A stretch of 64,000 nt of DNA, taken from positions 124,001 to 188,000 of the forward strand of contig SWBL01000030.1 of assembly GCA_024195585.1 (NCBI GenBank), read 5' to 3'. Below are positions 23,982 to 24,990 of this stretch, piece by piece. The position numbers and the translations under genes are program-made. The stretch is from Aureobasidium sp. EXF-3400. Lineage: Eukaryota > Ascomycota > Dothideomycetes > Dothideales > Saccotheciaceae. The notes beneath the pieces were generated by a model that was given only the letters and a program-made list of their open reading frames with translations, searched no databases and was not told where the DNA came from. Position 1 is the first letter of the stretch, and every line of letters begins with the position of its first letter.

Positions 23982-24990
23982 ATGAGCAGCCCGAAAAGAA
24001 GAATCGAGACGGATGTAAGTCTATGGACACAGAACAAAGAGCTGGAAAGTAGCATGGGCTGACACCTTCTTTCTTGCTGCCTACAGGTCATGAAGTAAGT
24101 TTCAGACCGCGCAATAGACCCTTATTGTCCCGTATACTGACCGTTGACAGGATGTATGTATAGACGCCACCTCGAGCCATCACGTGCATCTCTGACAGGC
24201 CAACCAGGATGATGAGCGACTACGAGGTTACTCTGGTAAACGACAACAGTAGGACCATACCCAGTCATATCGCCTTTGCATGCTCTGCTAACTAACACTC
24301 TAGTGTTCGTGTCTATGCGCTCACTAGCATGCCACCCGTCGTAAAGCTTACATATGTGCAGGCAGGAGTTCTTCGTCAGGTTCAAAGGCCCTGAAGAGAG
24401 TAAGATACAGCGGTCAAGACGATAACGTCGGCATCATGCTGAAGCCTTGTACAGCACCCTTCCAGGGCGGTCTCTGGAAAATCCATGTCGAATTACCCGA
24501 CCAATACCCCTACAAGAGTCCCAGCATTGGGTTTGTGAACCGCATCTTCCATCCCAACATTGATGAGCTGTAAGGCCCTCTGCACCGCGAGCGAACATGA
24601 ATCGAAACCTGACGATGCCCAGATCTGGCAGCGTCTGCCTCGACGTCATCAACCAAACGTGGTCGCCAATGTACGAAATGGTCAACATCTTCGAGGTGTT
24701 CCTTCCCCAACTGTTGCGCTACCCCAATCCGACGGATCCTTTGAACGGCGAAGCTGCAGCTTTGATGATGAGGGAACCGAAAAGCTACGAAGCCAAGGTC
24801 AAGGGTGAGAACCGTTGGATGTATTTGACATCAGCGACACGACTAATTGCTGTCAGAATACGTCTCCAAATATGCATCGAAAGAAGCGGCCGAGGATGCA
24901 GGCGAAGACTCGGACGACGACGACGAGATGAGCAGTGTAGGCAGTTTCGACTCTGACGACGAACCCGCCGGCAACATGGACGAGATCTGA
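23982..24990 (+). CDS. ubc8: Ubiquitin-conjugating enzyme E2, UBC8/UBE2H type, with 8-, 3- and 1-nt exons
   Basis: Best model has nine exons: 23982-24014, 24087-24094 (8 nt), 24151-24153 (3 nt), 24208-24248, 24304 (1 nt), 24362-24399, 24455-24569, 24623-24804 and 24857-24990. They sum to 555 nt (184 aa). All eight introns are GT-AG; seven are 52-57 nt and the first is 72. The protein begins [14 protein letters not shown] and aligns without gaps to yeast Ubc8 and human UBE2H. The active-site Cys lies in [14 protein letters not shown], with the HPN motif in IFHPNID. The acidic C-terminal tail is family-typical. Yeast Ubc8 works with the GID/CTLH ligase to ubiquitinate gluconeogenic enzymes. Without the tiny exons the frame breaks between NDN and QEFFV. 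Confidence 0.93.
24151..24153 (+). other. ubc8: Inferred 3-nt exon of ubc8 (GAT)
   Basis: It is flanked by GTTGACAG and GTATGT and splits 113 nt into introns of 56 and 54 nt, each with a CTGAC branch-like motif. Including it gives K-M-M-M-S-D, the same length as KLLMSD in yeast; skipping it keeps frame but deletes one residue. Confidence 0.7.
24304..24304 (+). other. ubc8: Inferred single-nucleotide exon of ubc8 (T)
   Basis: The base lies between AACACTCTAG and GTTCGTG. Exon 4 ends in A and exon 6 begins with G, so the T completes the ATG of NDN-M-QEFF. It divides 113 nt into introns of 55 nt (with GCTAACTAAC) and 57 nt. No other GT-AG choice I tried keeps the reading frame and the conserved residues. 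Confidence 0.72.

Follow-up and report, generated by a model that had tools for sequence, protein, structure and literature searches.

The ubc8 gene of Aureobasidium sp. EXF-3400 very probably contains an exon of a single nucleotide, a T that completes a conserved methionine codon and is separated from its neighbouring exons by two short introns. To judge from the protein models of its relatives, this exon is very probably ancestral in the Pezizomycotina, from Pezizomycetes to Dothideomycetes, where it would have been kept together with a 3-nt exon lying a few codons before it and would be spliced stepwise through a regenerated donor site.

The window, a 64-kb stretch of DNA corresponding to C30:124001-188000 in a genome of 53.4 Mb and 717 contigs, includes a nine-exon gene for a ubc8/UBE2H-type E2 enzyme on the plus strand at 23982-24990. 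The exon lengths (33, 8, 3, 41, 1, 38, 115, 182 and 134 nt) sum to a CDS of 555 nt including the stop codon, giving a product of 184 aa; the first-pass annotation had arrived at the same nine-exon total, and recomputation agrees with it. The features are listed below, the branch sites being called against the branch consensus, and the HPN motif and catalytic cysteine having putative roles in this product. Splice junctions are marked ^ in the text.

23982..24014, plus strand: ubc8 exon 1, 33 nt
24087..24094, plus strand: ubc8 exon 2, an 8-nt microexon, GTCATGAA (GTGATGAA in the second copy of the gene)
24151..24153, plus strand: ubc8 exon 3, a 3-nt microexon, GAT, identical in the second copy
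24208..24248, plus strand: ubc8 exon 4, 41 nt, ending ..AACA, the last A being the A of the ATG codon
24249..24303, plus strand: ubc8 intron 4, 55 nt, GTAGGA...TAG
24288..24292, plus strand: likely branch site CTAAC of intron 4, with branch A at 24291 and then 12 nt of intron
24304..24304, plus strand: predicted ubc8 exon 5, the single nucleotide T, middle base of the ATG for Met29
24305..24361, plus strand: ubc8 intron 5, 57 nt, GTTCGT...CAG
24347..24351, plus strand: likely branch site CTTAC of intron 5 (CTGAC in the second copy)
24362..24399, plus strand: ubc8 exon 6, 38 nt, starting with the G of the ATG codon
24455..24569, plus strand: ubc8 exon 7, 115 nt, bearing the HPN motif
24623..24804, plus strand: ubc8 exon 8, 182 nt, bearing the putative catalytic Cys (SGSVCLDVI)
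24857..24990, plus strand: ubc8 exon 9, 134 nt with the stop codon, encoding an acidic tail

Tandem acceptors, GCAG^GCAG^GAG (window 24358-24368), are found at exon 6, and in the second copy too; use of the second of these with the T exon causes a frameshift, and it is in frame only with a 5-nt form of exon 5 that is considered below.

The predicted product, in which the sequences IFHPNID and SGSVCLDVI are both present, matches PF00179 (UQ_con; E 2.1e-40). Its best match among solved structures is 8pmq_E (E2-24 kDa; E 1.6e-70), presumably yeast Ubc8, which has the sequence NDSMQEF; UBE2H structures match at E 6.4e-68 and 2.0e-66, and are followed by the E2 chains 2onu (6.7e-62) and 1yf9 (5.2e-56) and then by Ubc13 (1.1e-27). 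Judged by these matches, the product is a member of the Ubc8/UBE2H class of E2 enzymes, a class that partners the GID/CTLH ubiquitin ligase, and its closest named relatives among the matches listed are from Aureobasidium. The protein query P0006 found three loci among genome contigs, all titled archaeal or bacterial, and no relative among viral contigs, while the ubc8 DNA had no match among plasmids.

The first-pass annotation had placed the end of exon 4 (..AACA) at 24248 and the start of exon 6 (GCAGGAG) at 24362, with 113 nt between them, and these coordinates proved exact. Removal of the whole interval as one intron loses the reading frame, as had been claimed, with a stop reached at codon 69 when T24304 is left out. 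Treating this base as an exon, by contrast, yields introns of 55 and 57 nt, both GT-AG, and restores the ATG of the methionine within Asn-Asp-Asn-Met-Gln-Glu-Phe-Phe, so that both elements of the original proposal were borne out. Frame and the conserved Met together require exactly one base that is absent from exons 4 and 6. T24304 has TAG before it and GTTCGT after it (TAG^T^GTTCGT), branch-like motifs stand 12 and 11 nt from the ends of introns 4 and 5, and GCTAACTAAC occupies 24287-24296 in intron 4. GTTCGT is further from the consensus than the gene's other donors, which are of the GTAAGT type, and the CTTAC of intron 5 is not an ideal branch motif; the presence of such motifs is in any case a weak test, intron 6 of the window being without any near its 3' end.

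A second copy of ubc8 is found on the minus strand of contig C1 (L009), with its T at L009:2016. The lengths of all nine exons are identical between the two copies, which agree at 500 of 555 CDS bases and differ by 48 synonymous and 3 nonsynonymous codon changes. At the aligned place the second copy likewise reads TAG^T^GTTCGT, between introns of 56 and 61 nt whose branch-like motifs both lie 12 nt from the intron ends, the motif of intron 4 being CTAAC at the same distance as in the window. Between the copies, identity falls to 64% in intron 4 and 57% in intron 5, yet TAG^T^GTTCG is unbroken; since the copies are homologous and close, this indicates retention amid intron divergence, and not deep age. 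The neighbours on both sides match as well, at 77-83% DNA identity (C30:144500-153000 against C1:225394-232913). Such a duplicated neighbourhood on different contigs is as seen in a hybrid or diploid genome, and the copy on C1 resembles the model from Aureobasidium sp. EXF-12298. In A. melanogenum and Hortaea werneckii, diploid strains have been recognized by a genome size above 46 Mb (PMC9535773, in excerpt).

All one- and two-intron paths across the site were enumerated in both copies, the donors allowed being GT (or GT/GC), the acceptors AG and the minimum intron length 35 nt. When donors were restricted to GT, 44 open in-frame peptides were obtained from the window and 84 from the second copy, nine of them common to both; a contiguous NDNMQEFF occurs in just one of these nine, which in each copy is the path through the T exon. 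The first-pass annotation had raised another frame-keeping junction as an outcome that would count against the exon, and enumeration found NDNMQEFF to be reached in both copies by way of the T exon only. Single-intron solutions, GC donors and the unspliced reading were included in the enumeration, and none of them yields this peptide. The frequency with which such a site arises by chance was gauged from 20,000 dinucleotide shuffles per copy in which the intron ends were kept. A central AGTGT appeared in 570 shuffles of the window and 846 of the second copy, with 8 cases in which both had it at places no more than 2 nt apart; the strict pattern, for which a GTNNGT donor and also a branch motif were needed, appeared in 6 and 15 respectively and jointly in 0 of 20,000. 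The joint figure takes homologous copies as independent and is indicative only; it does not give a probability of origin.

A comparison with related species had been suggested as a further check, and the second copy has the same structure; beyond this genome, 192 distinct relatives were gathered from three protein searches, keeping the best 120 of 5,780, 5,761 and 6,021 hits, so that they represent a top-ranked sample and no census. Two plant entries (P0001 and P0036) were excluded from the counts. The 127 named fungal entries, a few of which are on contigs of 1-7 kb, were treated as genome-derived models; the taxon group was looked up for 13 taxa, and for most of those named we assume the group membership. 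Within this best-ranked set, the Met site is broken in 71 of the 84 named Pezizomycotina models and intact in 13, while it is intact in 43/43 and broken in 0/43 of the other named fungal models, which come from Taphrinomycotina, Saccharomycotina, Basidiomycota, Mucoromycota, chytrids and others (Fisher test, 71/84 vs 0/43, p 1.3e-22, a nominal value as species are not independent). It is also intact in all 63 proteins from other sources. The methionine had been described as invariant, which holds for the 43 fungal models from outside the Pezizomycotina and the 63 other-source proteins and fails for some non-fungal E2s: human UBE2H has LNEF, and the two plant entries read LNE (Quercus) and MQE (Pyrus).

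The other-source proteins are informative as to what the spliced product looks like. Longest contigs of 902 to 7,280 bases are listed for 61 of the 63, and none for P0044 or for the plant-labelled P0178. With eight introns in the gene here, the simplest explanation for a contig of roughly 1 kb whose frame is unbroken is that it represents a transcript, and we infer as much for these short contigs. By a rough nearest-neighbour score, 53 of the 63 proteins are nearest to Pezizomycotina and 10 to sequences elsewhere. None has an insert at the Met site, where all read Met-Gln-Glu or Met-Ser-Glu. In five matched pairs, drawing on three contigs, the named model is broken and the contig protein reads NDNMQEF: Morchella importuna, M. 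sextelata and M. snyderi are each identical to P0058 over 149 residues after the site, Penicillium chrysogenum shares 150 identical residues past it with P0013, and Lepidopterella palustris shares 151 with P0004. Zero-length rows for the Aureobasidium entries P0116 and P0017 are artefacts and were left out of the matched pairs. P0178, which uniref labels as Anthurium amnicola, has a chytrid Ubc8 model as its nearest neighbour and perhaps reflects contamination of plant data.

Other junctions of the same models served as controls. In the 84 Pezizomycotina models, junctions 1/2, 6/7, 7/8 and 8/9 are intact in 78, 79, 84 and 84 cases, and in the 43 other fungal models in 41, 42, 43 and 39. The stretch K-x-x-M-S-D, which spans the 8-nt and 3-nt exons, is intact in 42/84 and 42/43 respectively. 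As the control junctions are mostly intact, the excess of faults in Pezizomycotina can be located at the ultra-short exons. Of the 42/84 models broken at the 8-nt and 3-nt exons, 19 are short by exactly one residue. Met-Tyr-Val, which reading through GAT^GTAYGT would produce, is seen in four models, from Pyrenophora, Lepidopterella, Thelocarpon and Sclerophora.

The residues in the broken models carry a signature of their own. In 33 of the 71, NDN is followed by Ser and then by K (11), M (8), T (7), E (4) or L, D or G (one each); translation of A^GT[A/G]NG would account for 31 of these 33 (K, M, T, E or G). Sixteen read exactly Ser-x-Gln-Glu-Phe, which would be consistent with the second GT of A^GT[A/G]NGT having been used as donor ahead of an exon 6 beginning G^CAG, which makes up a frame that would otherwise be one base short; the Aureobasidium row among the 16 need not fit A^GT[A/G]NGT, the second copy here having GTATGA. 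A further nine read Met-[Phe/Tyr/Ser]-Val, corresponding to AG^TGTNNGTN, in which the T exon runs into its own donor; these are from Aspergillus tamarii, Hortaea, Septoria, Friedmanniomyces, Coniosporium, Sclerophora and three Aureobasidium. Three of the 12 models starting with Met are without the Val, and the Met-His of one of these three, from Mollisiaceae, is incompatible with a GT donor. The remaining broken models have Arg for Met (5), Lys without Met-Gln-Glu (7), other sequences (12) or have lost NDN (2); an alternative acceptor, CAAG^AG, would produce the Lys. The Aureobasidium entry P0034 reads CSYPIIRLQSVITKVADVARRQEF, which but for one residue is what the second copy would give from TAG^T onward; the MFVSIRSLEFF of P0007 differs by one residue from a window path with a GC donor.

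Several other structures could be proposed for the site. The 113 nt might be a single intron, with the apparent frameshift due to an error in assembly or sequencing, of which a discrepancy of one base is typical, or to the gene being a pseudogene. A one-base sequencing error had been named at the outset as an outcome that would tell against the exon, but it is made unlikely by the second copy, on another contig, with the same one-base deficit, the same T and the same exon lengths; the 48 synonymous against 3 nonsynonymous differences point to selection on the protein, and 71/84 Pezizomycotina models are broken at the same codon, leaving this explanation with a negligible chance of being correct. 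Exon 5 might also comprise the 7 nt TGTTCGT (24304-24310), which is open and in frame in the window, gives introns of 55 and 51 nt and adds Phe-Val after Met. Its donor, GTCTAT, is poor, however, the second copy has AC after TGTTCGT and so offers no GT donor, and no such insert is present in any of the 63 other-source proteins, making it extremely improbable. The sole other length-preserving solution open in both copies is a 5-nt exon, TGTTC, joined to the downstream acceptor GCAG^GAG, which replaces Gln with Phe to give Asn-Met-Phe-Glu-Phe. It would employ the donors GTGTCT and GTACCC, and not the GTTCGT common to both copies, and Met-Gln-Glu or Met-Ser-Glu is read in 63/63 other-source relatives; we find it scarcely credible. 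The single-nucleotide exon is the structure that we adopt for the window.

How far this exon extends beyond Aureobasidium is a separate question; the evidence is at the protein level in eight Pezizomycotina classes and at the DNA level in one genome. The exon in the window could be real and the faults in other Pezizomycotina of mixed cause, comprising other small exons, odd splice sites and scattered annotation faults, so that it would not be subphylum-wide. Consistent with this, the other Pezizomycotina are known here from protein models alone, 13/84 of these are intact at the Met, and only nine models, three of them from Aureobasidium, have the Met-x-Val by which AG^T^GT itself becomes visible. 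Against it, the fault affects a single codon in 71/84 Pezizomycotina models and 0/43 others, 16 models have the Ser-x-Gln-Glu-Phe that A^GT[A/G]NGT, G^CAG and a missing base would be expected to produce, and the contigs matched to five broken models restore the Met only; mixed causes are accordingly an unlikely account. The presence of the one-nucleotide exon throughout the Pezizomycotina is thus suggested with considerable confidence by these sequences, and the relatives' protein models would place its origin before the split of the sampled classes, with retention thereafter.

With acceptor and donor arranged as AG-T-GT, the two splice sites overlap and would be unusable by two spliceosomes at once, so introns 4 and 5 would have to be removed stepwise by intron definition; exon definition is implausible for an exon of one base. 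Joining of ...ACA to the T would regenerate a donor, ACAT^GTTCGT, for the removal of intron 5, a route that would resemble recursive splicing with one base left behind. The mRNA keeps no base from a ratchet site. In ubc8 one base has to be kept for the frame, so there is no zero-length exon of that kind, though the T24304 site may work like a ratchet site nonetheless. As the branch motif of intron 4 is closer to the consensus, the upstream intron would be expected to be removed first and intron 5 second, an order that we consider somewhat likelier than the reverse. The authors of work on APC11 proposed a similar combined model, and for the potato invertase microexon the second intron is the first to be removed, as cited in the same paper (PMC4674806, in excerpt). 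Skipping of the T in ubc8 is predicted to bring a stop at codon 69, retention of intron 4 one at codon 44 and retention of intron 5 one at codon 42. The enzyme would therefore be made by accurate splicing only, and the exon would have been retained over time because skipping it or keeping either intron brings an early stop.

One nucleotide is the least that the spliceosome can join as an exon. If the one-nucleotide exon of ubc8 is subphylum-wide, and so present in Neurospora and Aspergillus, which serve as genetic models, the order of intron removal, the reading of overlapping AG and GT sites and the evolutionary retention of such exons become directly testable. Most of the Pezizomycotina models seen (71/84 named) render a conserved enzyme wrongly, and, if the ancestral reading is true, most database entries for this enzyme in filamentous ascomycetes are wrong at the Met codon. 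The residues of the faulty models also provide a comparative signature for finding further ultra-short exons.

The first-pass annotation knew of no established fungal case, which is now outdated, the CYP621A gene of Fusarium being in print (PMC12940212, in excerpt). Among the matches listed from the open-licence literature, this was the only fungal nuclear one-nucleotide exon found, and no ubc8 microexon was found; that of ubc8 is a new fungal case, and apparently a more widespread one. The two are alike in being fungal nuclear exons of one base within a split codon of a conserved motif, and differ in that CYP621A is a P450 gene, with a G and with Fusarium orthologues, whereas ubc8 encodes an E2 and has a T; the CYP621A exon is supported by comparison and 18 SRA reads (PMC12940212, in excerpt). 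A longer fungal microexon is reported for Xlr2 of Trichoderma (PMC11121469, in excerpt). Single bases between two introns are also described from mitochondria, in placozoan cox1 (excerpt of PMC5436844) and at rnl-576/577 of Ophiostoma, where the introns are group II and not spliceosomal (excerpt of PMC12308204).

Recursive or ratchet sites, mentioned in PMC4674806, resemble the ubc8 site in that the 3' site abuts the 5' site and one step creates the next donor, although ubc8 keeps one base. VPS55 of land plants similarly has a deeply conserved and usually unannotated 1-nt microexon, backed by RNA-seq and RT-PCR; it differs in belonging to plants, in having duplicated and also alternatively spliced forms and in its GTRAGT donor (PMC8831610, in excerpt). 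A further parallel is with APC11 of Arabidopsis and other land plants, in which one frame-essential base likewise lies between a canonical AG and GT, in a ubiquitin-pathway gene whose annotation misses the exon and across a large clade that conserves it (excerpts of PMC4674806 and PMC8831610). By contrast with the two short fungal introns and the T of ubc8, which is known from sequence, the APC11 exon is in a plant host interval of 422 nt, consists of an A and was proven by mutation of the base (PMC4674806, in excerpt).
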